A stretch of DNA of 21,350 bases from a virus. A program made the position numbers and the translations under genes. The notes under the pieces were generated by a model. That model searched no databases. It saw only the letters and a list, made by a program, of their open reading frames with translations, and was not told the DNA's origin. Where the stretch lies: positions 1 to 21,350 of the IMG/VR virus record IMGVR_UViG_3300026483_000056. One strand, written 5' to 3'. Shown one piece after another: positions 3,469-21,346 of this stretch (position 1 is its first letter; each line of letters starts with the position of its first letter).

Positions 3469-4378
3469 TCAGAAAAGATTCTAAATCATCGCCACCTGCT
3501 GGTGTTGCTTCCTTTTCAGCTTTAGGAGTTGAAGTAGCCTTTTCAGCTTTAGGAGTTGAAGTAGCCTTTTCAGCTTTAGGTACCGGAGTGCTTGTTTCAA
3601 ACTGATTAGTTACAGCATCTATTGCTTCACCAGGGTTTAAATACATTTTAAGAACGCTATTTACGAAATTTCTTGTGTCTTCATCCCATGGTCTGTATTC
3701 AAACTGCTTCATTGAAGGGGCTCCTTCTAATTCAGTTTTAATAGCATCCATATCTTCTTTAGTTCTTTCTGCTGCTTTACCTTTAACAGTGACCGCAGAT
3801 GTTGAAGATGAGAATTTAGAAGTGTCGTAGTTATTATAATCGTTTTGTCTTGTAATTACTAATTCAAAGTTTTTACCTTCAAATAAATCAAATACTTGAG
3901 TTGGCTCACCAAAATTAGGCTTTAATTCCGCATCGATTTTTTCTTTGATTTTGTAACCGAATTTAAATATTTTATAAGTACCTTCTAATTCAGGTTGTTG
4001 AGGGTCTTTGATAATTTTTACAAGAGCTACATAAGATTCTCTTCTTTTTAATTTATCAGACGCCTTTCTATCAACTGCGCTTTCTGATTTTCTTAATCTA
4101 AAAAATGCATCAGAAACTGGACAGTGTTCACCAATTGTAGTTGGAGAATCAATCAACTTAGAATCGCCGTTTGGACCTGTTAGCCAGTTTACGTATTTTT
4201 TAATTAATGAATTTCTTGGGTTTTCAATATTAGGAACGAATCTAATTAATGCTTTATACGTTCCGTCTTTGCCATCATCGGCAGAAGGCTTATACATCAT
4301 GTTTCCAGTTGTATTTACCTCTTGTTCATGTGTGTTGATGTCTTCGACACCAATGCTAAAAATGTTAAAATCTTCCAT
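3452..4378 (-). CDS. 32: Single-stranded DNA-binding protein (T4 gp32-like)
   Basis: Protein of 308 aa (T4 gp32 is 301 aa), the ssDNA-binding protein that coats templates during replication, recombination and repair. The core matches in order: ALIRFVPN (43-50), HCPVS (85-89), RRESYVALVKIIKDPQQPE then GTYKIFKFGYKIKEKI, FDLFEGKNFELVI, and YNNYDTSKF, each with a T4 counterpart. The tail is a flexible KAEKATSTP repeat and an acidic end, DDLESFLNDLEL, like the T4 acidic tip DDTDLDDLLNDL that recruits partner proteins. Two oddities stand out. Cys86 is the only cysteine in the protein, so the T4 zinc site (His64, Cys77, Cys87, Cys90) is lost. The N-terminus is acidic and lacks the KRKST (LAST) motif used for cooperative binding in T4. 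It heads the replication operon and has its own leader and promoter. Confidence 0.92.
   Translation of the reverse strand: MEDFNIFSIGVEDINTHEQEVNTTGNMMYKPSADDGKDGTYKALIRFVPNIENPRNSLIKKYVNWLTGPNGDSKLIDSPTTIGEHCPVSDAFFRLRKSESAVDRKASDKLKRRESYVALVKIIKDPQQPELEGTYKIFKFGYKIKEKIDAELKPNFGEPTQVFDLFEGKNFELVITRQNDYNNYDTSKFSSSTSAVTVKGKAAERTKEDMDAIKTELEGAPSMKQFEYRPWDEDTRNFVNSVLKMYLNPGEAIDAVTNQFETSTPVPKAEKATSTPKAEKATSTPKAEKEATPAGGDDLESFLNDLEL
3509..3583 (-). repeat. 27-base tandem repeat in gp32 C-terminal linker
   Basis: The coding strand repeats a 27-base unit encoding KAEKATSTP: two full copies and a partial third (KAEKEATP). It forms the Pro/Lys/Thr-rich linker between the DNA-binding core and the acidic tail. 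The near-identical DNA of the copies suggests recent slippage, so linker length may vary between related phages. Boundaries are approximate. Confidence 0.8.
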
Positions 4379-4380
4379 AA

Positions 4381-4419
4381 CTTTAATTTACTTTTAATCT
4401 TTAATTTACTTTAATTTAC
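4381..4419 (-). promoter_or_regulatory. Putative gp32 translational operator: GTAAATTAAAG repeats
   Basis: Between the predicted transcription start and the gp32 ATG the transcript carries three exact copies of GTAAATTAAAG (4409-4419, 4399-4409, 4381-4391) with an extra GATTAAAAG between the last two. This gives four UUAAA elements ending 2 bases before the start codon, and no Shine-Dalgarno sequence. T4 gene 32 is known to be autoregulated by gp32 binding an unstructured, A/U-rich leader with UUAAA-type repeats next to a 5' pseudoknot. The arrangement here is very similar. Autoregulation is inferred, not shown. Confidence 0.55.
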
Positions 4420-4420
4420 C

Positions 4421-4435
4421 GTTTATACTTTAAAC
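4421..4435 (-). promoter_or_regulatory. Small hairpin at predicted 5' end of gp32 mRNA
   Basis: On the minus strand GTTTA-AAGTA-TAAAC forms a perfect 5-bp stem with a 5-base loop, directly after the predicted transcription start and directly before the UUAAA repeats. In T4 the matching position holds a pseudoknot that nucleates gp32 binding. I found no convincing second strand for a pseudoknot here, so only a weak AT-rich hairpin is supported. Confidence 0.4.
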
Positions 4436-4439
4436 TTAT

Positions 4440-4471
4440 AATATTATATAGTCAACTTTAAAATAGTTTCA
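4440..4471 (-). promoter_or_regulatory. Putative promoter for gp32 operon (copy 2 of duplicated module)
   Basis: On the minus strand TGAAACTATTTTAAA is followed by TATATAATATT, with 15 bases between TGAAAC and TATATAATATT. The same module with identical spacing lies at 4594-4625. TATAAT is a perfect -10 box and would start transcription near 4436, leaving a gp32 leader of about 57 bases. The upstream box may be a -35-like or activator site, as MotA boxes are in T4 middle promoters; it is not the MotA sequence. The box overlaps the last codons of the 43-aa frame. Confidence 0.55.
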
Positions 4472-4589
4472 TAATATGAACCTTGTTTGCGCGTCTAACC
4501 GACTTAGTTTGTGCTATTGCACCTATGTTTGCTTCAGACAGGGTCCGATAATTAGTGTTCAAATATGAACTTAGTTTATCGTTTTCCAT
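4458..4589 (-). CDS. Possible 43-aa small protein
   Basis: An ATG frame of 43 codons, starting MENDKLSSYLNTNYRTLSEA and ending VHIMKLF, fills much of the 336-base gap between the RuvC-like gene and gp32. The translation looks protein-like: TLSEANIGAIAQTKSVRRA resembles a helix-turn-helix or a short basic helix pair. It sits just after a promoter-like module, whose predicted start (about 4590) would make the mRNA nearly leaderless. I do not recognise the family. A small regulator of the adjacent replication operon would fit the place. It could also be a chance frame in a regulatory region. Confidence 0.45.
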   Translation of the reverse strand: MENDKLSSYLNTNYRTLSEANIGAIAQTKSVRRANKVHIMKLF

Positions 4590-4714: not shown

Positions 4715-5371
4715 TCAGGGAAGATTAGGTTCTAAGGTTCTCATTAAGGAGTTTAAGTAGAAAGCGTCTACAAGGTCATCAAAGGGCTTTGGGATAGATT
4801 TACCGAATTCAACGGTTTTAGCGAACTTCCAGAATTTTGTCTCCTCGAGAAATTTTTCACCAGTAGAATTATTTATAAAAACTTCCCATAAAGCTAGCTT
4901 ATTCATATTACCTTTACCTGCATGTTTTTTAATTGTTGAAGGAGCTATTGTTAAAATATCTTCAGGCTTAAAGTATTTGAGAAGTTTAATCTTAAGAATA
5001 GATGCAGCCGCTGCCATATCAATAATATTATTAGTCCCAGCAGAACTACCATAAGATACCCCTTCAAATGCTATCTTAAATGAGTCTTCTTTATCTATAT
5101 GTTTTGTAATTAGTTCGATAATATTATTTGACATAATATCATAACGTTTAATCTTAGCAAGTTCAATACTAGAATAATCAACATGAGTTTCCCAATCCGG
5201 CTGAAAAACAAGAGTAACACCCTCCATTAAAGCTAAGTCTTCCTGTGTCTTAATAGCCTTTTTTGTACCTGATCTTTTTAAATAAGAAATAAAATGATAT
5301 TGATTAGTATTGTCATTAAATAAACAAATACCAGGAGAGTTTAAAGAAAAATCAATTGTAATAAAATTCAT
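4715..5371 (-). CDS. RuvC-like Holliday junction resolvase
   Basis: A 218-aa RNase H-fold protein with RuvC-type motifs: TIDFSLNSPG with Asp7 (first catalytic Asp), AFEGVSYG with Glu103, the RuvC-like loop PSTIKKHAGKGNMNK (144-158), and FDDLVDAFYL with Asp199 and Asp202. RuvC cuts four-way DNA junctions with these four acidic residues. The frame is open for 14 more codons upstream (to 5413), but I chose the ATG at 5371. It places the beta strand with Asp7 at the N-terminus, is preceded by AAAAGG about 8 bases upstream, and lies just past the previous stop at 5373. T4 resolves junctions with endonuclease VII (gp49), so this may be its replacement. A different RuvC-family nuclease remains possible. 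Confidence 0.8.
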   Translation of the reverse strand: MNFITIDFSLNSPGICLFNDNTNQYHFISYLKRSGTKKAIKTQEDLALMEGVTLVFQPDWETHVDYSSIELAKIKRYDIMSNNIIELITKHIDKEDSFKIAFEGVSYGSSAGTNNIIDMAAAASILKIKLLKYFKPEDILTIAPSTIKKHAGKGNMNKLALWEVFINNSTGEKFLEETKFWKFAKTVEFGKSIPKPFDDLVDAFYLNSLMRTLEPNLP

Positions 5372-5372
5372 A

Positions 5373-5741
5373 TTAAAACCTTTTACCGATTGAAGCTCCG
5401 ATTGCAGTTCCAACGAGTCGTGAAGTTAATAAATCATATAGAATACCTTTTTGTACACCTAATACTTTAGCTACCATTTTTCCAATAGATTTTCCTAAAG
5501 CAAATCCAGCAAGACCACCTACAATGGAACCTAAAAGACCTTCATTAGTCATTTCATTATTAAATCTATCAACATCTAAGTCTCCATTTTTATCTCTGTA
5601 TTCGTTTAAAAATTCATCAACTGCTTTATCTACTTTTTCTTCTAGTTCAGGAGTCCATTCTTGTTGAAGTCCTTCTGTTAAAAGTTGCATTTCCTTTTCA
5701 GTAACTCTGTTTTCTTCTAAATATTCTATAAATGTTTTCAT
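5373..5741 (-). CDS. Predicted internal head protein: capsid-targeting N-terminus, protease site, glycine zipper
   Basis: A 122-aa protein. Residues 1-10, MKTFIEYLEE, closely resemble the T4 capsid-targeting sequence of the internal proteins (MKTYQEFIAE). LTE-G at 21-24 fits the T4 prohead protease (gp21) rule of a hydrophobic residue, any residue, Glu, then a small residue, predicting removal of the first 23 residues. A charged helical part (about 25-63) follows. Then comes a strict glycine zipper with Gly71, 75, 79, 83 and 87, and a second one with Gly111, 115 and 119, which would pack helices in a membrane. The inference is a protein packed in the head, matured there, and ejected with DNA to act at the host membrane. 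A lysis or tail-tip membrane protein is the alternative. It starts 14 bases after the tube-like gene and is preceded by GATATATAAC. Confidence 0.7.
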   Translation of the reverse strand: MKTFIEYLEENRVTEKEMQLLTEGLQQEWTPELEEKVDKAVDEFLNEYRDKNGDLDVDRFNNEMTNEGLLGSIVGGLAGFALGKSIGKMVAKVLGVQKGILYDLLTSRLVGTAIGASIGKRF

Positions 5742-5755
5742 AAGTTATATATCTT

Positions 5756-6307
5756 TTAATCTATGTCCATTTTAATTTCAAACTTATTATAATAAAAGTT
5801 TAAATCAAATGTATTAAATTCTGAAACGTTTTCAGCCATGTTTAATGTTAACTCACTTATTTGATTTAATATAGGTTGTTCAAATGTAATACTTGCTATT
5901 CCTAATCCTTCTGCATCTAAGACTCTAAGTTTTAAATCATCTAAATGTTTTTGTTTAGTCGTAGGTGCATAATAATGTAATAAAATGTCATTCATCATCC
6001 AGTAGTTAATATAACCATCCATTAGCTGCATTGTAACTGTAAATTGTCTAGTAATAGTATTTTGTGTTGGAATTTTACCTCTAAAATAACGAGTAGTTCC
6101 ATCATTATCTGATTGGCTTACAGGGTCGAAGGTAACTCCTGGTAAATTAATACCTTGAATACCATAATTAATAAAATCAATAGGCTCTTCAAAAAGATTT
6201 CCAGGTATTTTATTTAAATAAGGTTTATACTTTTTTACGATTTCTTTAGGTATAAAATTCTTATTAAATCTAAAATCAAATAAATTATTTCTACTATTTA
6301 AAATCAT
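5756..6307 (-). CDS. Tail-tube-fold protein (gp19-like; possibly a baseplate-tube protein)
   Basis: A 183-aa protein with the element order of the T4 tail tube gp19 fold. An N-terminal block (IPKEIVKKYKPYLNKIPGNL) is followed by a loop strand with INLPGVTFDPVS, then RYFRGKIPTQNTITRQFTVTM, which matches the gp19 pattern of a Lys/Arg-rich loop then DWTVTV. A helix with YINYWMMNDIL parallels FVDWQSI. Near the end, VLDAEGLGIASITFEQPILNQISELTLNM and FNTFDLNFYYNKFEI parallel KEIEIKGLWPTNVGELQL and IQTFEVTLALDYW. The same fold is used by gp48, gp54 and the gp3-type tail proteins, so the exact role is open. Its ATG overlaps the previous stop (ATGA), with AAAGG 15 bases upstream. Confidence 0.55.
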   Translation of the reverse strand: MILNSRNNLFDFRFNKNFIPKEIVKKYKPYLNKIPGNLFEEPIDFINYGIQGINLPGVTFDPVSQSDNDGTTRYFRGKIPTQNTITRQFTVTMQLMDGYINYWMMNDILLHYYAPTTKQKHLDDLKLRVLDAEGLGIASITFEQPILNQISELTLNMAENVSEFNTFDLNFYYNKFEIKMDID

Positions 6308-11114: not shown

Positions 11115-14100
11115 TTATGACTTTATTTTTATTAAAGGTCTAATCTTATAAGAGTAGCCTATTCTTTTATTATATATTAATCTAAAATTGAGAGGGTTTA
11201 CAGGGTCTAATTTATAAGTAAAATTACCATCTGAGATATATCCATTTACATTTAAATTAGAGGGATCAGAAATAATATCAATTGTAGTTATTTGTTTTTT
11301 CCCTTCATATACCGCTAATCTAATAGAATCTATTGAAAATGCAGGTATTATATTTTCAGCAACATATCCATTAATATCATCACTTAACGTGTCAATTCTA
11401 CCAAAACTATTTTCAACCTCTACCAATCTGTTCATTGTATAACTTAAACCTAAACTGCTTAGTTTTTTAACAACGGCCTCCCTCATATAAAAATCCATTA
11501 TTACTTCTCTTTCAGTTTCTATATAATTAATATCATTTTGAGATTCACCTAATAATTTAATATTGTTTAACTCCTCAATAGCCTCATATCTTCCATGTGT
11601 AAAGTTAAATACTTCATATTCTTTATTTAACTTTATAGCGCTTGAACTCATATAACTTTTTTCTTCAACTATATTTTTAGTTCCTGGAATATATTGAATA
11701 CCTCCTCCACTGGTTGATCTAATGTAGTAAGTATCTTCCCATCTTGACATGAAAACATTTTTGTTTTTCTTTTCAATAGCAATTTCATTTATTAAATTAT
11801 ATTTAGGTAATAAATCATCTGATTCTGAAAGTTTTATAACTCCACTAGTATCTATGTCGTTTACTTTATGGAAAAAATGATTTTTAATACTTCCCCATTG
11901 GCTGTCATGTAAAGGTGATTTAACTTCACCTATGTTAAATAATACACCACACCCATTTAGTTTTTTATATAATTCTATTGCAAGTTTATTTTCATCAGCA
12001 TTACCAATGTTATAATTATAGACATATCCAATTGGAGTTCTATATACATCGCTCCAATCATATCCGTCACCTGGTTCAATTTTATGCATAGAAAAAGGTT
12101 CACTAAATGTAATAATAGGTTTAGTATTTATGGTATATTTTCCATTTTGTCTAGTTAAAAGAGCAAAATATTCGTTTCTAGATTTTATACTATATCCAAT
12201 AGATTCATTTGTTAATCCAAATGCTTTAGGTTTATTAATGTCTATTTCAGGATATAAGTTAGAAGTTTTAACTATTTCAACACCGTCTTGCATTTCTAAA
12301 GAAAATGTATTTTCAATAATACTTCCATCAACATTAACTGTTAAATATTCAGCATTGTTAGTAGTATTTAAAACATTTGCAACATTTCCAGCAGATAATA
12401 AATTTAATAAAGATGAATGTGCAAAAATACCTCCACCTCTATATGAATAGCTTGCAGACTTATATTGATTTAATGTATAAAATTGAGTAGGTTGAGGAAC
12501 ACCATTTATTGTCATTTCCCCAGTAACTGAAATTTTATTATCATTTATTACATTGTCTATGTTTAGTTCATATGTTATTCCAGCAACTTCAACTTCTAAA
12601 ATACCATAAGAACCAGTTATAGGATCTTTAAGTATTTGTGAAGTAAATGAAGGAACACTACTACTGTTGTGAGTAATTCCATCTATTACAGTGCTTTGAC
12701 CTTGACTTAAATTAACTGAACTTAAATCTAATGCACCCGAAACTATGCTATTTGAATAGTTATAAAGATCTTGTAACTTATGATCTAGTTCATATAATAA
12801 TTTTCTATTTAAACATCTAAAGTTATCATCTGATAAATTTAAATCTAAAATTAAAACAACAAATTTAAATTTTTTATTTTGAATTATTCTAAGTTTTAAT
12901 TCATTTGGAGAATTTACATCAAAGGATGTTTTTAAAACGGTTGAAAATCTATAACCATTAAATTCACTATTTTTAATAAATTCTTTAGTTATGTTATTTT
13001 CAATTTTTTTTCTAGTTTTAGGTATAAATCTAATACCTTTAAATATTGTTGAGGCAAACGATTCACCTCCTCCATCTTCTATTATTGTATACTTTTTAAA
13101 AGTTCTAGATTTTCCAAATGAAGTTTGAGCAAATGTTTCATCAGAACCAACCATTGCCCCAGTCCCTACAAAATATGTTTTAAAATAATCAAAATTTATA
13201 TCTTTAAAATGATCTAAACTAAATTCAATATTGGGTGAAGGTTTTAAATAACTAAAAGTATTATCGACATCAAAATACTCTAAGTATGTAGGGTATTCGT
13301 CTATATAGAACCATTCGTGTGTCATTTTAGTTTCGTCTCTATCTAAACTTTCTAGAGAAGCAGCAAAATTAGTTTCACCAAATGCTTCATTTAAATTTAG
13401 AAAGTATGGGTTTTCTCTAACGTTTAAGCTATCCTTTAGAGACCATTTATTAATATATGGAACTACTCTGGAGATTGTAGCAAATTCCGTTGTATTATTT
13501 TCTTGTAGTCTTTCAAATTCACTAGATATTCTAGTCATTGTGTTTCCTTCAGGTAAACTGTTTTCATCTTCTAATATGTTTATTAAATTAGAAAAATAAG
13601 TATTAGAATCTTCCTTTAACCTTTCAACATCAGCATATGCATCTAAAGGCATTTCTCCATTAGGCCCAGTAGGTTCATCAATTGCATTTGAAAATGGGTA
13701 AAGTATGTCATCTTCTAAATCTAATTCTTTTAAATCAGAATTAGATTCATCATAAAAATCAAAATCCATATCATGAATATCATATGCACTAAACATTCCC
13801 CATTCAATTTTAAAGTCTTTATAAACATTAACAATATTTTCTATACCATTGTTTTTATCTTTAAGAATTACTCTTTTAAAATTAGAATTTATCTCTCTTG
13901 GATCATCTACTATGTCTAATACCTCATTAAATCTATTTTCAATATCTAATAAATATTCACCTATACTGATTTCATCTTCATCATCTTCATTAATATAAAT
14001 TGAAGAATTTACATTACTTCCTCCTTTTAAATACCAAACTTCATTATTTAATAAAAAGTTAGAAGTTATGTTTTTATTAGAGGATTCCTCATTTATTTCT

Positions 14101-16949
14101 ATGAAATTAGAAGAAGATAAATTTTTAACAAAAATTCCTAATTCTCTATTATAACCGTCAACGTCTGAATAAATTATAATTTCATTTTCTAAAACAATAG
14201 AACTAAATAAAGTATAATTATTAATTAGTGAACTTATTGAATCTGCAACATTCTTTAAAGTACCTTGATTTGAGAATCTATTATTTTCAAATCTACCTTT
14301 ATCAACGTTGTTATCGGCTATAAATGTATTTTCTACAACATTAATATGAGTGTATGTTTTTTTAACATCTAATATTGTTAAGTTGTTATTTAAACAAAAA
14401 ATACTATGGTTTTCTTCAAAATTATATTGCTTTTCTACAAGTTCTATAAAGTATTTATTGCCACGTTGAATTAAAGAAGGTTCATACTTTTCAAAAGTAT
14501 TACCTACACTGATAGGCCAATTGTTTACTAAATCTAGAAGAGTGTCATATTCAGTTGCGCCTGAAGGTCTTGTATAACCAAATCCAGTATTATCATTTAA
14601 TGTTACTGACCCTGTATTTTCATTAACTACAATCTTTATTGTGAATCTTTGTTTTTTTAATTTTAAAAGTCTAAACTCATCTCCATTTAATGGGTTATCT
14701 ATTATTTTAATTTTAATAAAATCAGAAGCTGCACTTGTATTAACAATAATCTCTATGTTTTTATTAGTCTTTTTAATTCCTGTAAATAAACTATAATCAG
14801 TATTATTAGTATCTGCTCTTAATTCATAATTTTTACGATTCCAATATACTCCATTTTTAATATTATGATAATTTGAAAAACTTTTAATCCAACCTAACAT
14901 TGGCATATTTTGATAAAACACATTATGAGGTAACATATAAGTTCCGGAACCAACATCGCTTAAATCCATTTCACTGATTAGTGTGTCTTTTTTAAATGTA
15001 AATAAATCGTTTTTAATATTATCAACGGATCCTCCTCCTAATTTATGTTCATCTACATAAATTCCAAAATACCTATTTATAGAAAACTCTTCAGCTTCTT
15101 CATCATCAAATAAAAATTCTAAATTAACTAAGTTTGCACATGCTAAATTATTTCTAGAAAAACCTTCAGTTATAAAATCATTATATTCTATAATAGGTTT
15201 ATCTGTTTTAATAGTATCTTTATAGTGAAATTCTCCTTTACTAGTGAAGCCACCTTTTTCTAAATCTATACCATTATAAAAAGTTTGTTCATCTTTATTA
15301 AATGAAACAGTTAATGGAGAGTCTGGAAAACTATCATCATTTACATAATTTCTAATATATTTACCTATAGCAGAGTCATTAGAAAGATCAATTGTCTTTA
15401 TTAATGTTGCATTTTTAAGCATTTCATTAATTCTATCTAAATTTTCAGAATTAGAATAATTCTTTGTGTTTATCGGATCTTTAACCCTATAGATTAAAAA
15501 CTTAGAAGGTACTTTTTTATCTAGCCAAATTGGAGCTAACATTGCAAATTCACTATCATATAGTTTATTATAATTTATAGAAGTACCATAATTATAAGTT
15601 TCTTCTAATTGTTTTTCATAACTATCTAATACTGAAAAATCTGAATTATCTCTTTTTACTTTATAAACTAAATCATTTGGTGTAGAATCTTTATTCCAAA
15701 ATTTAGCAACATCATATGAATATGATCCAGTTTCTTTAACTAAATATTTTTTATAATTAGAAGCAGCAAGTTGATCAGTCGCATTAAAACTTTCTAAATA
15801 CATTTGATCATTTTCAACTATTAACTTTATATTAGTGCTTATTTTAGGATTTGTTCTAAGTAATGGTTTTGAAATGTTGTCATATCTTCCATTATTTTCT
15901 ATATCTGTTCTAATTTTAAAAGGAGTTAAACTACTATAAGGATCGCTTCCATCAGACGTTCCATTTAAGTTTTCTAAAGATTCAGCTACCTGTTGTATTA
16001 AATTAGGATTAATTTGTGCTACTTGTTGATTAGGATCTGTTGGAAAATCATCTGCATTATCACCTACACCATCTCCATCAGAATCTAAAGTTTCAGTTGA
16101 ATCATTTGGAAATGCATCAGCGTTATTACCTACGCCGTCTCCATCAGAATCTAAAGTTTCAGTTGAATCATTTGGAAATGCATCAGTGTTATCTCCTACA
16201 CCGTCTCCATCTGAATCTAAAGTTTCAGTTGAATTATTTGGAAATGCATCAGCGTTATCTCCTACACCATCTCCATCTGAATCAGTGTCTTCGTTAGGAT
16301 CTGTTGGAAATGAATCAGTGTTATCTCCTACACCATCTCCATCAGAATCTAAAGTTTCAGTTGAATCATTTGGAAATGCATCAGCGTTATCTCCTACACC
16401 ATCTCCATCTGAATCAGTGTCTTCGTTAGGATCTGTTGGAAATGAATCAGTGTTATCTCCTACACCATCTCCATCAGAATCTAAAGTTTCAGTTGAATCA
16501 TTTGGAAATGCATCGGTGTTATCTCCTACACCGTCCCCGTCAGTATCAGTATCTTCGTTAGGATCTGTTGGAAAGTCATCAGCGTTATCACCTACACCGT
16601 CCCCATCAGTATCAGTATCTTCGTTAGGATCTGTTGGAAAGTCATCGGCGTTATCACCTACACCATCTTCATCTGAATCTGTGTCTTCGTTAGGATCTGT
16701 TGGAAAGTCATCAGCGTTATCACCTACACCATCCCCATCTGTATCAGCAGTTTCAGTTGGATCGTTTGGAAAAGCATCTTTATTATCAGCTACTCCATCC
16801 CCATCAGCGTCTCCACCGCTATCTCCACCATCTCCTATTGGGGTTCCACCGGCACCCGAATCAGTGTCGTTAAAATCAGTTGGGCCGTCTCCAGAACCTG
16901 AGTCAGTGTCATCTCCACCTAATATTGGGTCATCTCCACCTTCAAACAT
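11115..16949 (-). CDS. Giant virion protein with 12 thrombospondin type 3 repeats
   Basis: A 1944-aa protein, the largest gene here. Residues 1-46 are a Gly/Asp-rich leader with no signal peptide. Residues 47-310 are 12 tandem 22-aa repeats of the form DxDGDGVGDNxDxFPxDxxExx, the TSP3 calcium-binding pattern. The remaining 1,630 residues are Asn, Ser, Tyr and Phe rich, beta-rich, and not recognised. They are probably an adhesin, a long fibre or a baseplate-linked structure, because fibre genes flank them. Cysteines are few, so the repeats rely on bound calcium rather than disulphides. A promoter-like motif lies 37 bases upstream. TSP3 repeats are frequent in flavobacterial OmpA-like proteins, which suggests the module was captured from a host. 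I do not assign a T4 gene name. Confidence 0.85.
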   Translation of the reverse strand: MFEGGDDPILGGDDTDSGSGDGPTDFNDTDSGAGGTPIGDGGDSGGDADGDGVADNKDAFPNDPTETADTDGDGVGDNADDFPTDPNEDTDSDEDGVGDNADDFPTDPNEDTDTDGDGVGDNADDFPTDPNEDTDTDGDGVGDNTDAFPNDSTETLDSDGDGVGDNTDSFPTDPNEDTDSDGDGVGDNADAFPNDSTETLDSDGDGVGDNTDSFPTDPNEDTDSDGDGVGDNADAFPNNSTETLDSDGDGVGDNTDAFPNDSTETLDSDGDGVGNNADAFPNDSTETLDSDGDGVGDNADDFPTDPNQQVAQINPNLIQQVAESLENLNGTSDGSDPYSSLTPFKIRTDIENNGRYDNISKPLLRTNPKISTNIKLIVENDQMYLESFNATDQLAASNYKKYLVKETGSYSYDVAKFWNKDSTPNDLVYKVKRDNSDFSVLDSYEKQLEETYNYGTSINYNKLYDSEFAMLAPIWLDKKVPSKFLIYRVKDPINTKNYSNSENLDRINEMLKNATLIKTIDLSNDSAIGKYIRNYVNDDSFPDSPLTVSFNKDEQTFYNGIDLEKGGFTSKGEFHYKDTIKTDKPIIEYNDFITEGFSRNNLACANLVNLEFLFDDEEAEEFSINRYFGIYVDEHKLGGGSVDNIKNDLFTFKKDTLISEMDLSDVGSGTYMLPHNVFYQNMPMLGWIKSFSNYHNIKNGVYWNRKNYELRADTNNTDYSLFTGIKKTNKNIEIIVNTSAASDFIKIKIIDNPLNGDEFRLLKLKKQRFTIKIVVNENTGSVTLNDNTGFGYTRPSGATEYDTLLDLVNNWPISVGNTFEKYEPSLIQRGNKYFIELVEKQYNFEENHSIFCLNNNLTILDVKKTYTHINVVENTFIADNNVDKGRFENNRFSNQGTLKNVADSISSLINNYTLFSSIVLENEIIIYSDVDGYNRELGIFVKNLSSSNFIEINEESSNKNITSNFLLNNEVWYLKGGSNVNSSIYINEDDEDEISIGEYLLDIENRFNEVLDIVDDPREINSNFKRVILKDKNNGIENIVNVYKDFKIEWGMFSAYDIHDMDFDFYDESNSDLKELDLEDDILYPFSNAIDEPTGPNGEMPLDAYADVERLKEDSNTYFSNLINILEDENSLPEGNTMTRISSEFERLQENNTTEFATISRVVPYINKWSLKDSLNVRENPYFLNLNEAFGETNFAASLESLDRDETKMTHEWFYIDEYPTYLEYFDVDNTFSYLKPSPNIEFSLDHFKDINFDYFKTYFVGTGAMVGSDETFAQTSFGKSRTFKKYTIIEDGGGESFASTIFKGIRFIPKTRKKIENNITKEFIKNSEFNGYRFSTVLKTSFDVNSPNELKLRIIQNKKFKFVVLILDLNLSDDNFRCLNRKLLYELDHKLQDLYNYSNSIVSGALDLSSVNLSQGQSTVIDGITHNSSSVPSFTSQILKDPITGSYGILEVEVAGITYELNIDNVINDNKISVTGEMTINGVPQPTQFYTLNQYKSASYSYRGGGIFAHSSLLNLLSAGNVANVLNTTNNAEYLTVNVDGSIIENTFSLEMQDGVEIVKTSNLYPEIDINKPKAFGLTNESIGYSIKSRNEYFALLTRQNGKYTINTKPIITFSEPFSMHKIEPGDGYDWSDVYRTPIGYVYNYNIGNADENKLAIELYKKLNGCGVLFNIGEVKSPLHDSQWGSIKNHFFHKVNDIDTSGVIKLSESDDLLPKYNLINEIAIEKKNKNVFMSRWEDTYYIRSTSGGGIQYIPGTKNIVEEKSYMSSSAIKLNKEYEVFNFTHGRYEAIEELNNIKLLGESQNDINYIETEREVIMDFYMREAVVKKLSSLGLSYTMNRLVEVENSFGRIDTLSDDINGYVAENIIPAFSIDSIRLAVYEGKKQITTIDIISDPSNLNVNGYISDGNFTYKLDPVNPLNFRLIYNKRIGYSYKIRPLIKIKS
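16020..16811 (-). repeat. Twelve 66-base tandem repeats encoding TSP3 motifs
   Basis: Each unit is 66 bases (22 aa), and there is no frame slip. Two unit types alternate: one ends DDFPTDPNEDT or DSFPTDPNEDT, the other DAFPNDSTETL. Units 6-7 and 8-9 form a 132-base higher-order duplication. A stretch of about 147 bases is identical by eye between 16236-16382 and 16368-16514. Such identity indicates recent unequal recombination or slippage, so the copy number probably varies. Confidence 0.95.
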
Positions 16950-16985
16950 ATTTGTGTTTTTATTTTTAGTTTAATATTACTTAAG

Positions 16986-17008: not shown

Positions 17009-20000
17009 TTAACTAACTGCTTTAGTAAGAGTAACTGTTTTAGTATTGTTTAAGTTATATCCTTGTGGCTTATATTTAGCAAACACTTCTAAATCAAAAG
17101 AAAATTGATTTTCATTAGAATCAAATATATCTAAACCAATTGTTTTAGAATATGTTAAATTAGAAACAGGATTTGTATTCTTACCTGCAACCCTACCAGT
17201 TGAAGTATCAACTCCTCCACTTGCAGTAACTCCAAAATAATCAGTCATTCTATATTGGAAAACAAGATCAACTGTAATATTAGGGGATTTTGCAACTTGG
17301 GAATTAACCTGCTTACTATCTACTTTACCTATTGTCTTTTTTCCAAATTTATTATCTCCATCAACTACTAAACTTCCGATTCTAGCAGGTGACATAAATA
17401 AATATGCTCCACAAGATTTACCTCCTAATAAAAATTGATCATTATCACTAAACGACATTTTCATAGTTCTCTGATAAAATTGACTGTTATCGTACCTGTA
17501 AGGTGTCTGTAGATTAGAATAATTATCATCAGTTGATAATGTTGCAAATTGAGAGATGTTGTTCCAGGTAGCCTGATAGGTTGTACCTGTAAATACAGTA
17601 GGGTGATCAACATGTACATAAATAGAGTCATCATAATCTCCACTTGTTAAACTTGATAATTGAATTACCTCAGCGTTTACACCTTTCCATATGAAGTCAT
17701 TTGTTGAAGTACCGTCAGTACCTGTAGCAGCCTTTCCAAAATATTCAAATCTATTAGTACCGTTTGTCAAACTAGTATCATCTCCTGTTAAATAATCTAG
17801 AGGCAATGTTGAATATAATGGATTTTCACCAGTAACATCCATATATCTACCATATATAAATTGACCTTTACGCTGCGCAGATTGCATAGCAGCTTTATTG
17901 TTAAATATTTCAGCGTTAGCTTCTATAGTAGTCATATTCTGATATTGAATAGGAACTAAATCATATTTTCCTTCAACTGTGTAATATGTATCGTTTTCAA
18001 TTCTTGAAGCAAGAGCAGGTGTACCTGTGCTATAATCATGCGTACCCATTTCAAAAGTAACTTCGTCTCCCGAAGAAGAAGATGGATAAACTGCATCATT
18101 TCTATTTCCTATTATTCTTGCAGTTAATTCTAAGTCAGTTGCTTTACTATTTTCTAATAATAATTTAAAAGTCTTAGTTACAATTGTTCCTTTCTTAATA
18201 TTTAAGTCAGCTACCTCATCTACATAATATCCTGCAAATAATTTAGTAGTAGTGTTTGCCTCAACCTGGGTTGTTCTACCTTCCTCATCTACTATAGTTG
18301 CCAATAACTCACCTTCGGCATTTTCTAATTGTTCCTTAAGACTATCTATTTCCTTTTGAAGATCTATTAATTTATCTAATAAACTAATTGGAGTTTGTTC
18401 AGAAGATAAAAAACCTGAAGCGATATTACCGGCTCCATGTGTAAAATATTTTTCATTTGCAATAAAACTATCAGCAATATGTGTGTAAACTCCTTTAGAA
18501 TCTAATTCATCAACAAGTTTTACATAAGTAGTTTCTTTGCTATTTTCCTCAACAAGGTTAATTACATCAGAAGTATCTAACATACCTTGTGGAAATTCTA
18601 TTAATATAGGTTCACTCCAATCTGAAGTTACAGGAGTTGATGGAAAACCAGCTTCTGAATATGCCTTTATTCTAATTTCAATATTTTCACCTAAATTAAT
18701 AGGAAGATCTAGTTGATTAAAATTAACTTCTTGTCCATCTTCTATACTTTCAGTTGTCCAAATATATTTACCCGTAGTCACATCCTTTAATCTCTTTCTA
18801 GTTGGAGTATCTAGTTGATTCCAGTTTGAAAAACTTGCAGTTGTAGTTTTATTATCTTGTGTAAATGGTATTTGTTCAATGTTACTTGTTTTACCACTTG
18901 CAGAAACATATCTATATTGAATACTAAATTTAACAATTTCTTGTGGAAGCGTATCCGCATTTGTTTTTGCTTCAGGCACTTTCCAAAAACCTCTAACTCT
19001 AAATTTAGGCTTAATATCTTTTACATTCTGATCTGTGCTAATGCTTTGGATTTGATTAACAACTGAAGAATATAATTTAGCTTCACTACTTCTTTTTTCA
19101 ATAAGAGTGTTTAGAGTATTTTTATCTTTATTTTTTTGTATTTGTGAACTATATTTCTTAGTAGCAATTTCACTTCTCTTACTAGAAATAGTGTCATCTA
19201 ATTTCTTTAAATTTTCACTAACTGTTATTTTATCAGTGTTTAATTTTTTAATATTATCTAATGCGTCATTTTCAGTTAAGTGTGTATTAATCTGTACAAC
19301 TTGAAAATTATCTACATTTAATTCAACTGGATCTGGTACAATACCAACATTTGCTGGTGGAATAAAGTCTTCTTTTAAGGCTTTAATAAATTGACCAAAG
19401 TCAGAAACGCTATCTCTATAGAAAGCAGATAATGTTTGAGTTCCTCCAGCTTCGTTCTCAATTGTTAAATCATTAGAATAAAAACCAACACCGGGTGACC
19501 AGTTTTCTGCAATGATTTTAGAATCAGGATCAATTGCTTTAAAGAATACAACTTGTCTCTCATCAAATCCCACATTAATGCTTAGATCTACTTTGTTTTC
19601 TAAAGATTTATAAATTCTAAGTTGACTAGTTCCAATTTTAATACTGTCAAAACCTTCAATTAATCTTAGTTCAAGTTGACTAGTACCGTTATATACATTT
19701 TCAATTCTATACCTCGTATTGTTGTTGCCGCTATTTACAAGTAGCTCATCACCAACTGATAAAAATTCAGTATCATTTAAAGATTTATCTCCATCAGTAT
19801 AAGTTAATTTATTTAAAGTATATAGTTTAACTGTTTTTATAACTGGAGTTCCGTCTACTACAAATTCTCTTTCTGCATTTTCAACTGCTAATACATCAAA
19901 ATCACCATAGTATTGAGTTGATTTAAAAGGAAGGTCTCTAACCTGTTCATCAATAGTTGCATTTGCCCCACTACTTATTAAGTCTTCTACAAATGTTTGA

Positions 20001-20557
20001 TAATTAATCTCATCAACATTATTATAAGTGTCATCAAAATAAGCTGCAGCAAATTCATCGTTTGCTTGAAAAATATATCTTTTTACTAAAACTCTTTCAG
20101 TATCTACTACAATTTGATTACTAACATCAAATTTAACAGTTAATAATGGATTTAAATAATCTTCAAAAAAGTCATTATCTGTAGTTACGAATTGTGTAGG
20201 TAATGCAATTGAAGTTAAATCACTTGCAGGAGTTTTAAGTTTTCTTGCAATAATCTTTTTAAAGCTACCGTCAGGCATCTGTACAGTTGCATCTGCAGTT
20301 CCAACACCACTCAATGCTTTAATATTATTTTCTAATCTTTTTATTTCTCTATCAATAAACCCAAACGAAGGTATTTGATAAGTTTTAATTGTAGTTACGC
20401 CGTCATCATCTGGCGTACCGAATAAGTCTACTGAAACTGTAATAGCATCCTTTTCACTAGTCATTGCCTCATTAATACGCTCAAAAGTTTCTAACGCATT
20501 GGCATTCATCTGTGTGAATTGCTTGATTATTCCTGAAAATGAGTTTTGTGTGTCCAT
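17009..20557 (-). CDS. Large tail/baseplate structural protein with coiled coils and Fn3-like region
   Basis: A 1182-aa protein. The N-terminal part contains IPSFGFIDREIKRLENNIKALSG (about 72-94), a helix that looks like an assembly or attachment element. Then come beta-rich segments, a coiled coil (about 424-502, rich in Lys, Glu and Leu), a region with fibronectin type III character (about 518-655; VRGFWKVPE ... IEIRIKAYSEAG ... TSDWSEPILIEFP), and a second short coiled coil (about 722-752, LLDKLIDLQKEIDSLKEQL). The C-terminal third is beta-rich with GGKSCGAYLFMSP and LVFQYRMTDYFG, a pattern I associate with marine T4-like structural proteins. It starts 3 bases after the previous stop. A baseplate-wedge or fibre-connector role is likely, but I cannot name the T4 counterpart. 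Confidence 0.75.
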   Translation of the reverse strand: MDTQNSFSGIIKQFTQMNANALETFERINEAMTSEKDAITVSVDLFGTPDDDGVTTIKTYQIPSFGFIDREIKRLENNIKALSGVGTADATVQMPDGSFKKIIARKLKTPASDLTSIALPTQFVTTDNDFFEDYLNPLLTVKFDVSNQIVVDTERVLVKRYIFQANDEFAAAYFDDTYNNVDEINYQTFVEDLISSGANATIDEQVRDLPFKSTQYYGDFDVLAVENAEREFVVDGTPVIKTVKLYTLNKLTYTDGDKSLNDTEFLSVGDELLVNSGNNNTRYRIENVYNGTSQLELRLIEGFDSIKIGTSQLRIYKSLENKVDLSINVGFDERQVVFFKAIDPDSKIIAENWSPGVGFYSNDLTIENEAGGTQTLSAFYRDSVSDFGQFIKALKEDFIPPANVGIVPDPVELNVDNFQVVQINTHLTENDALDNIKKLNTDKITVSENLKKLDDTISSKRSEIATKKYSSQIQKNKDKNTLNTLIEKRSSEAKLYSSVVNQIQSISTDQNVKDIKPKFRVRGFWKVPEAKTNADTLPQEIVKFSIQYRYVSASGKTSNIEQIPFTQDNKTTTASFSNWNQLDTPTRKRLKDVTTGKYIWTTESIEDGQEVNFNQLDLPINLGENIEIRIKAYSEAGFPSTPVTSDWSEPILIEFPQGMLDTSDVINLVEENSKETTYVKLVDELDSKGVYTHIADSFIANEKYFTHGAGNIASGFLSSEQTPISLLDKLIDLQKEIDSLKEQLENAEGELLATIVDEEGRTTQVEANTTTKLFAGYYVDEVADLNIKKGTIVTKTFKLLLENSKATDLELTARIIGNRNDAVYPSSSSGDEVTFEMGTHDYSTGTPALASRIENDTYYTVEGKYDLVPIQYQNMTTIEANAEIFNNKAAMQSAQRKGQFIYGRYMDVTGENPLYSTLPLDYLTGDDTSLTNGTNRFEYFGKAATGTDGTSTNDFIWKGVNAEVIQLSSLTSGDYDDSIYVHVDHPTVFTGTTYQATWNNISQFATLSTDDNYSNLQTPYRYDNSQFYQRTMKMSFSDNDQFLLGGKSCGAYLFMSPARIGSLVVDGDNKFGKKTIGKVDSKQVNSQVAKSPNITVDLVFQYRMTDYFGVTASGGVDTSTGRVAGKNTNPVSNLTYSKTIGLDIFDSNENQFSFDLEVFAKYKPQGYNLNNTKTVTLTKAVS

Positions 20558-20560
20558 CTA

Positions 20561-21346
20561 TTATCTTATAACATCTATTTCAAATTCAAACATCGCAGCG
20601 TTTATACAAACTATTTCGAAATATGGATTGTTTCCAACTTGTGTGTTTGATATACTTCCAATTAGTTTATCATATCCAGCTTTCCAATTAGTATAAACGT
20701 TAATGTTATTCCCGCTTAAATTTAAGTTTTCAAAAACAATCTTATAACTTTGGCCATCTTTCCAATTTATAAGTTTGTCATCTATGTATATATTAATATT
20801 ATTATCTGCGCCTTGATCCATTGTTTTACCAACTAACCTAAGTTGATTTGAAAATTCTTTTAGTCTAGCCCATATTCCAAAACCTGTTGCATTTGATGGG
20901 TTAAACTGATTAGTATCTTTAATTTCATTATAAACACTTAATGTATTTTCATTCCATAAGAATGGCTTTCCAAATACATATGTTTTTAAATCGTTTTTAA
21001 TTTTAATTTTATTAGGAACTGTTTTGTCAACTAATATGCCAGGACCATTAAATAAAATATCAGTATTATATTGTACTTCAGATGGAATTGTACCATCAAT
21101 AAGTTGATTAATTCTTCCATTGGCACTTGTAATTAATTCTAATAAACTGTTGCTATCTGCAAGGTTTGCACTTGCATTTTGAAAATCTGTTTCTAATGAA
21201 CTTATTCTGCTTAGCATTTCAGCACTTGAGTCCATCGACATTACTAAGTTTTCTAAGTCATCAACTCTGCCTTTAATTCTAGTATATCTTGCATTCGCAT
21301 CTGATAATAATTTGGCAGCATTCTCTAGGGCACTTGTCGTATCCAT
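20561..21346 (-). CDS. Coiled-coil fibre- or baseplate-associated protein
   Basis: A complete 261-aa protein starting 4 bases from the right edge. Residues about 1-90 form a heptad-rich coiled coil (VDDLENLVMSMDSS, LSRISSLETDF, SNSLLELI). A connector with FNGPGILVDKTVPNKIKIKN (about 98-117) follows; it is typical of trimeric fibre or spike proteins. The C-terminal part is a beta domain with FGIWARLKEFSNQLRLVGKT, INIYIDDKLINWKDGQSY and FEIVCINAAMFEFEIDVIR, possibly a jelly-roll. It is 3 bases upstream of the 1182-aa gene, and the two probably form one substructure. The family is not recognised. Confidence 0.7.
   Translation of the reverse strand: MDTTSALENAAKLLSDANARYTRIKGRVDDLENLVMSMDSSAEMLSRISSLETDFQNASANLADSNSLLELITSANGRINQLIDGTIPSEVQYNTDILFNGPGILVDKTVPNKIKIKNDLKTYVFGKPFLWNENTLSVYNEIKDTNQFNPSNATGFGIWARLKEFSNQLRLVGKTMDQGADNNINIYIDDKLINWKDGQSYKIVFENLNLSGNNINVYTNWKAGYDKLIGSISNTQVGNNPYFEIVCINAAMFEFEIDVIR

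Follow-up and report, generated by a model that had tools for sequence, protein, structure and literature searches.

What does a small phage protein do that begins like an internal head protein of phage T4 and ends in a glycine zipper? The question is raised by a gene at 5373..5741 (minus strand) in the window, a 21,350-nucleotide stretch of viral DNA (positions 1 to 21,350 of IMG/VR record IMGVR_UViG_3300026483_000056). The gene has an ATG start and codes for 122 aa.

Genomic context

The zipper gene lies between two other genes on the minus strand. The upstream neighbor (5756..6307) codes for a tail-tube-type protein, an assignment made through its homologues, 9 of 12 of which match PHROG 45 'tail tube' (best E 1.7e-11). 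The window copy gave no match in the PHROG search, and among solved structures a tube terminator is matched weakly (E 0.095). The downstream neighbor (4715..5371) codes for a RuvC-like resolvase, with PHROG 159 matched at E 2.3e-10 by a 232-aa TTG-start ORF. The listed TTG at 5413 makes this ORF overlap the zipper gene (window 5371-5413, minus); the likelier start is the Met codon at 5371, which adjoins the zipper stop and is the start called in G001. This 204,977-base IMG/VR contig aligns to the window in three main segments of 98.7, 99.5 and 99.9% identity and encodes a protein identical to the 122-aa product.

The RuvC-like gene is conserved downstream of the zipper gene in the chosen loci, and the order tube, zipper gene, RuvC is present in 23 of the 25, in some with extra bases between; the other two are Lak loci. 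A scan with the tail-tube gene found 444 relatives in 485 stretches, and in 79 of the best 80, which were kept, the zipper gene is downstream of the tube gene, several of these loci being on contigs already matched in earlier scans. The gap from the tube stop to the zipper open frame is -54 to 18 bases in 74 loci and 184 to 318 in five. The single miss, L260, is not clear evidence that the gene is absent, because the contig stops 1,032 bases past the tube gene and holds other ORFs with capsid targeting sequence (CTS)-type starts there (3550-4581). Given this conserved position, together with the 99 distinct related proteins described below, we regard 5373-5741 as a real gene.

Relatives and distribution

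The first protein scan for relatives of the 122-aa protein gave 41 loci, and a profile of its last 61 residues (62-122) gave at least 468 relatives among 599 candidate viral stretches, the best 80 of which were kept. All distinct proteins pooled over the scans, with those of Lak phages and of the uncultured phage LR756500.1 left out, form an alignment of 99 rows. One of these, L041/L042, differs in that a longer frame, of 251 codons from stop to stop, ends in the zipper domain. Its KTF is at position 134, far inside that frame, and the first 23 residues of this row therefore do not form an N-terminus; the longer frame has its own FxxFLNE-type motif close to the first Met. A smaller alignment of 73 rows contains 72 distinct sequences, as the window and the identical L002 are both rows, and here the median pairwise identity of residues 68-120 is 0.81; an earlier 25-row set likewise contains 24 distinct sequences.

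With the window protein as query, 16 of 50,697 GenBank phage records match at E<=1. One is the 462-kb LR756500.1 (46% identity over 98% of the query), and the others are 15 Lak phage records that match in the C-terminal half only, at 39-40% identity, a level similar to that of the Lak major capsid proteins (36-38%). No cultured phage stood out among the 16, and LR756500.1 and the Lak records carry no annotation. A profile search of 11 chosen records finds the domain in three, LR756500.1 (E 7e-31) and two Lak phages (E 2e-29), with a profile that itself includes rows from LR756500.1 and Lak-C1. At E<=1 the domain was found in none of T4, PTm1, pT24, four other huge phages and a Synechococcus phage, and T4-like phages can thus do without it.

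The presence of the gene in 79 of 80 tail-tube loci, and the retention of the domain in 15 Lak records, suggest that the zipper gene is likely a core gene of these phages, which favors a structural or DNA-entry role over an anti-defence cargo. No paralogue was found at E<=10 among the 270 ORFs of G001. A scan of genome contigs matched 95 stretches, none of them a relative, and gave no clue to the host. The host is probably a member of the Bacteroidota, judging from the best GenBank matches of the capsid protein after LR756500.1, which are to Prevotella, uncultured and Tenacibaculum phages.

The N-terminus and the first predicted cleavage site

Residues 1-23 (5673..5741, minus) resemble a T4 capsid targeting sequence. 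The sequence-only reading had likened the start MKTFIEYLEE to a T4 MKTYQEFIAE, and had noted an LTE-G at residues 21-24 and glycines at 71/75/79/83/87 and 111/115/119; all of these are present in the protein, and in the T4 sequences that we fetched the quoted start is that of IPII and IPIII. Between positions 2 and 66, T3, F4, E23 and L33 alone do not vary over the 99 rows, and Y7 is present in 71 of 73 rows (72 distinct). In T4 IPIII, residues 4 and 7 carry targeting, according to an excerpt of PMC9026906; the invariance of F4 and near-invariance of Y7 here are a resemblance at the level of sequence. In 66 of 80 loci the [K]TF stands immediately behind the Met; in the remaining 14 it begins 2-5 residues past the Met, and residue numbers there are those of the alignment. 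Two distinct sequences have RTF in place of KTF, the LR756500.1 protein starts METFIEY, and the Lak homologues are without an MKTF start.

Predicted site 1, LTE-G (residues 21-24; 5670..5681, minus), reads [LIV]xE in 99/99 rows and [LI]xE in 95/99; if L041/L042 is removed, the 98 distinct relatives that remain give 98/98 and 94/98. P3 is L, I or V only, P2 is any of eight kinds of residue, and P1' is G in 62 rows, S in 30, N in six and Q in one. The pattern is close to the rule published for the T4 protease gp21, which cuts after L/I-x-E (PMC9026906, excerpt). The conservation of E23 could be partly structural, since L25, E28, W29, L33 and E34 nearby are also conserved (73 rows, 72 distinct). 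An alternative IPIII-like site, LEE-N (residues 8-11; 5709..5720, minus), is less likely to be an essential cut because it is not invariant, residues 8-10 being [LI]xE in 87 of 99 rows.

Among the T4 internal proteins the closest in layout is IPI. Like the window protein it has an MKTF start (MKTFKEF), an aromatic residue 7 and a propeptide ending in [LI]TE, with ITE at 17-19. The published mature IPI has 76 residues (PMC3012670, excerpt) and the precursor has 95, which puts its cut (ITE-A) after E19, whereas in the window protein LTE-G would be cut after residue 23. The cargoes are unrelated. In its mature form IPI is an alpha/beta protein that inhibits restriction (PMC3012670), and the T4 internal proteins are dispensable (PMC9026906), as the same excerpts have it, whereas in the window protein an acidic spacer leads into a conserved glycine-zipper domain, and there is a second Glu-Gly site. 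IPII and IPIII share with it the aromatic residues 4 and 7 and a site at residue 10, but here that site varies and the invariant one is at 23.

A gp21-type protease in the same genome had been named as a check on the packaging prediction, and G001, 98.7-99.9% identical to the window, encodes an S77 protease that matches PF03420 above the cut-off (E 1.0e-12) and PHROG 207 'head maturation protease' (E 1.9e-38), so that this check did not go against the prediction. PF03420 is above the cut-off in four of 11 and eight of 10 contigs of relatives (12/21 in all, contigs that may be fragments). The protease ORFs are 632-820 aa long with a long extra C-terminal part (G001 85645-87543 (L051), G012 147160-149622 and G013 104769-106973) and are probably protease-scaffold fusions. 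A PTm1 gene is annotated 'prohead core scaffolding protein and protease'.

A second site at the charge switch

The remainder of the protein has two parts of opposite charge. The acidic spacer, residues 24-67 (5541..5672, minus), has a charge of -9, a pI of 4.1 and a GRAVY of -1.43, and the glycine-zipper domain, residues 68-122 (5376..5540, minus), a charge of +6, a pI of 10.7 and a GRAVY of +0.87. The switch falls exactly at 67/68, within predicted site 2, TNE-G (residues 65-68; 5538..5549, minus). E67 and G68 are invariant (99/99 rows), and the triplet is TNE in 88 rows, VNE in six, IEE in two, and TSE, LNE and VEE in one each; the junction is kept as INE-G in LR756500.1 and VDE-G in Lak. 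P3 is Thr in 89 of these rows, which is outside the L/I-x-E rule. In G001, Asn-Glu-Gly also follows the start region of two other proteins, 70210 (a match to the tag pattern described below) and 149872 (CTS-like by eye only), and in the latter is just ahead of a short hydrophobic stretch.

We think that site 2 is probably cut because E67-G68 is invariant, is placed at the charge switch, and has Asn-Glu-Gly counterparts in these two CTS-like G001 proteins. The earlier interpretation is upheld in part: the E23 site is conserved, but the invariant E67-G68 suggests that the cargo proper is 68-122 and not 24-122, and once mature it may be as short as 55 residues. Whether the mature protein is basic depends on this cut, as 24-122 has a pI of 4.9 and 68-122 one of 10.7.

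The glycine-zipper domain

The spacing of the glycines is only mildly unusual in one sequence, with a five-Gly zipper arising in 167 of 20,000 shuffles of residues 68-122; the stronger fact is that G71, G75, G79, G83, G87, G111, G115 and G119 are all invariant (99/99 rows). The domain may insert into a membrane, although its hydrophobicity is only moderate (best 19-residue Kyte-Doolittle mean 1.42). AlphaFold predictions with 24 and 69 sequences are of low confidence (mean pLDDT 52.7 and 57.0), with helices breaking near 25/26 and 66/67. Neither the full-length nor the zipper profile matched a solved structure at E<=1. In PHROGs the window protein has no match at 0.001, and 69 relatives have weak scattered matches at E<=1.

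GxxxG repeats are shared with Pfam Gly-zipper_Omp (PF13488) and Rick_17kDa_Anti (PF05433). PF13488 is matched at E<=0.01 by 52 of the 69 relatives and by the window protein at 23.3 bits, below the cut-off of 25; the likeness is likely one of composition, which does not imply kinship. The T7 ejection proteins are not known to be released by a prohead protease. No convincing sequence homology to those of T7 or P22 was seen, PHROG 4295 'internal virion protein' being matched by four of 69 members at a best E of only 0.22. T7 gp14, gp15 and gp16 are packaged and ejected, and membrane helices are predicted for gp14 and gp16 (PMC8954989, excerpt).

Our literature search, mainly of open-access papers and without bioRxiv preprints, found no phage paper in which a capsid targeting sequence is combined with a glycine-zipper domain, and papers on glycine zippers, phage and capsids looked unrelated, judged by listing. 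For targeting sequences or internal proteins in marine, Bacteroidetes and Lak phages, the matches listed were work on T4, SPN3US and P1 and papers of no apparent relevance. In a word search of the Lak classification paper (PMC11165621), internal, glycine, prohead, capsid targeting and protease were absent.

CTS-type starts in related contigs

Related genomes had been named as a place to look for other N-termini of this kind, and such starts are enriched in three related contigs. The strict pattern [FY]xx[FYL][ILV]xE, modeled on T4 IPII and IPIII, was sought in the first 20 residues of ORFs of at least 60 aa, the ORFs counted being mechanical and not curated genes. It matches 15/246 ORFs in G001, 9/271 in G012 and 13/202 in G013, against 1.74, 1.15 and 0.65 expected from internal 20-mers and maxima of 5, 4 and 4 in 1000 shuffles. 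Fisher tests against internal Met-started 20-mers give p values of 3.4e-6, 1.7e-4 and 3.7e-8 respectively. The pattern was written after the G001 N-termini had been seen, so that G001 is not a blind test, and G012 and G013 are the untouched ones. It misses T4 IPI, gp67, gp68, gp21, gp22, gp23 and gp24, and thus undercounts. A broad regular expression (18/246 in G001, 3.57 expected) was set aside in favor of the strict one.

PHROG 2667 'internal head protein' gives weak support for a packaging tag. By the first residues only, it matches T4 ipIII (E 0.0011), T4 ipII (0.0020) and a G001 protein (0.0029) at similar E, and it also matches a G014 frame (0.0057), three of seven records in all; it misses T4 ipI, finds nothing in G012, G013, G015 or PTm1, and at E<=10 has matches in five of 14 control genomes.

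CTS-type proteins of G001 (L047-L057) that are candidates for packaged cargo are at 53010-54275, 59139-61592, 62558-62980, 62997-63308 and 63327-63782, with others at 110575-111246, 135007-135345, 150704-151006 and 176438-176848. The last has the look of a zincin-type metallopeptidase (Pfam below cut-off), and its G012 relative starts after the tag. Three CTS-type proteins with strong hydrophobic stretches, G001 70210-71430, G013 116376-116723 and G013 123750-124196 (19-residue means 2.09, 2.23 and 1.82), are possibly further packaged membrane proteins. Other ORFs have additional internal CTS-like motifs, as if several tagged cargoes had been fused into polyproteins (G001 54283-56241, 59139-61592 and, by eye, 141388-143430; G013 19947-20867).

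A proposed role in DNA entry

The predicted packaging of the zipper protein is well supported by these comparisons, and we place at about even chances the reading of it as a packaged (ejection) protein of a T4-like phage. Like the capsid targeting sequence of T4, residues 1-23 would attach to the core of the prohead, and the S77 prohead protease of the phage would then cut after E23; conservation and comparison with T4 make these two steps likely. The same protease probably also cuts after E67, removing an acidic spacer that, before the cut, would hold the hydrophobic basic end in solution and prevent it from doing harm, a step toward which we lean only slightly, as the site is conserved but has a non-canonical P3. 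The 55-residue basic glycine-zipper peptide would stay in the head with the DNA and be ejected at infection, helping DNA across the inner membrane or resealing the membrane. From its charge, zipper and core-gene status the peptide could be ejected and membrane-active, which we hold at somewhat less than even.

DNA entry through the inner membrane is our first choice among roles, since it accounts at once for the packaging, the core status, the charge and the zipper. We know of no settled mechanism by which DNA crosses the inner membrane in contractile-tailed phages. In its fullest form the proposal is that an essential, lineage-wide 55-residue cationic zipper peptide forms or lines the inner-membrane DNA passage throughout this contractile-tailed lineage, Lak megaphages included, that the prohead protease releases it in the head from an acidic CTS-bearing pro-part, and that it belongs to a large set of cargoes addressed by a CTS, some being polyproteins with repeated internal CTS; as a whole this is speculative and rather doubtful. 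If true, a core, head-packaged, protease-released zipper peptide would be a small, testable DNA-entry candidate for a large group of marine phages and for Lak megaphages. With the CTS motif, likely cargo proteins can also be listed for uncultured T4-like phages when nothing but their sequence is at hand.

Alternative explanations

The main rival to DNA entry is a prohead assembly factor that is not injected, with its CTS end in the core and its zipper end holding the prohead to the inner membrane until the 67/68 cut releases it, or else a core component like gp67/gp68. Core-gene status, a fixed position and a spacer with an invariant site at either end would suit such a factor, and in T4 the prohead is matured by gp21 and comes off the membrane (PMC9026906, excerpt). 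The tag may also mark core proteins, as a small acidic protein beside the protease has a CTS-type start in G001 and G013 (the G012 counterpart has no pattern match). However, T4 gp67 and gp68 are core genes beside the protease and capsid genes, whereas in G001 the zipper gene (46,694) is ~39 kb from the protease (85,645) and capsid genes and beside the tail-tube gene, and the zipper is basic whereas T4 gp67 is acidic by eye. We consider an assembly role unlikely. An injected anti-defence or superinfection-exclusion cargo, like T4 IPI or Imm, would account for a tag and site layout that are the same as in IPI, an injected restriction inhibitor (PMC3012670, excerpt). T-even internal proteins are, however, highly diverse (PMC3012670) and not highly conserved (PMC9026906), in the portions of those papers cited, whereas this gene is in 79/80 loci, has a median identity of 0.81 over residues 68-120 and in Lak is about as conserved as the capsid protein. 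The sequence-only reading had offered anti-defence and exclusion roles, which fit poorly with an apparent core gene of fixed position; an accessory anti-defence role was rejected as first choice because the gene looks core, and the reading is distinctly improbable.

Two further explanations were considered. The protein could be a tail-associated membrane-active protein, its CTS-like start being coincidental or otherwise used, as it adjoins a tail-tube-type gene and has a very weak match to the tape-measure PHROG 794 (E 0.094); the invariant T3-F4, the protease-type site and the recurrence of the N-terminal motif in many unlinked genes argue against this, and we think it very unlikely. Fainter still is the prospect of an ordinary small membrane protein of the infected cell that is absent from the virion and matches the motif by chance, for although MKTF starts are short and packaging is predicted from sequence, the conservation pattern and the genome-wide enrichment in three contigs speak against chance.

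Other features of the window

A 1944-aa ORF (11115-16949, minus) has N-terminal thrombospondin type 3 repeats (Pfam TSP_3, 2.9e-8). Its G001 equivalent is 1900 aa long and copies of the repeat align with one another; the number of repeats thus varies. A 262-aa ORF on the plus strand (16186-16974) is antisense to these repeats and is probably an artefact of them.
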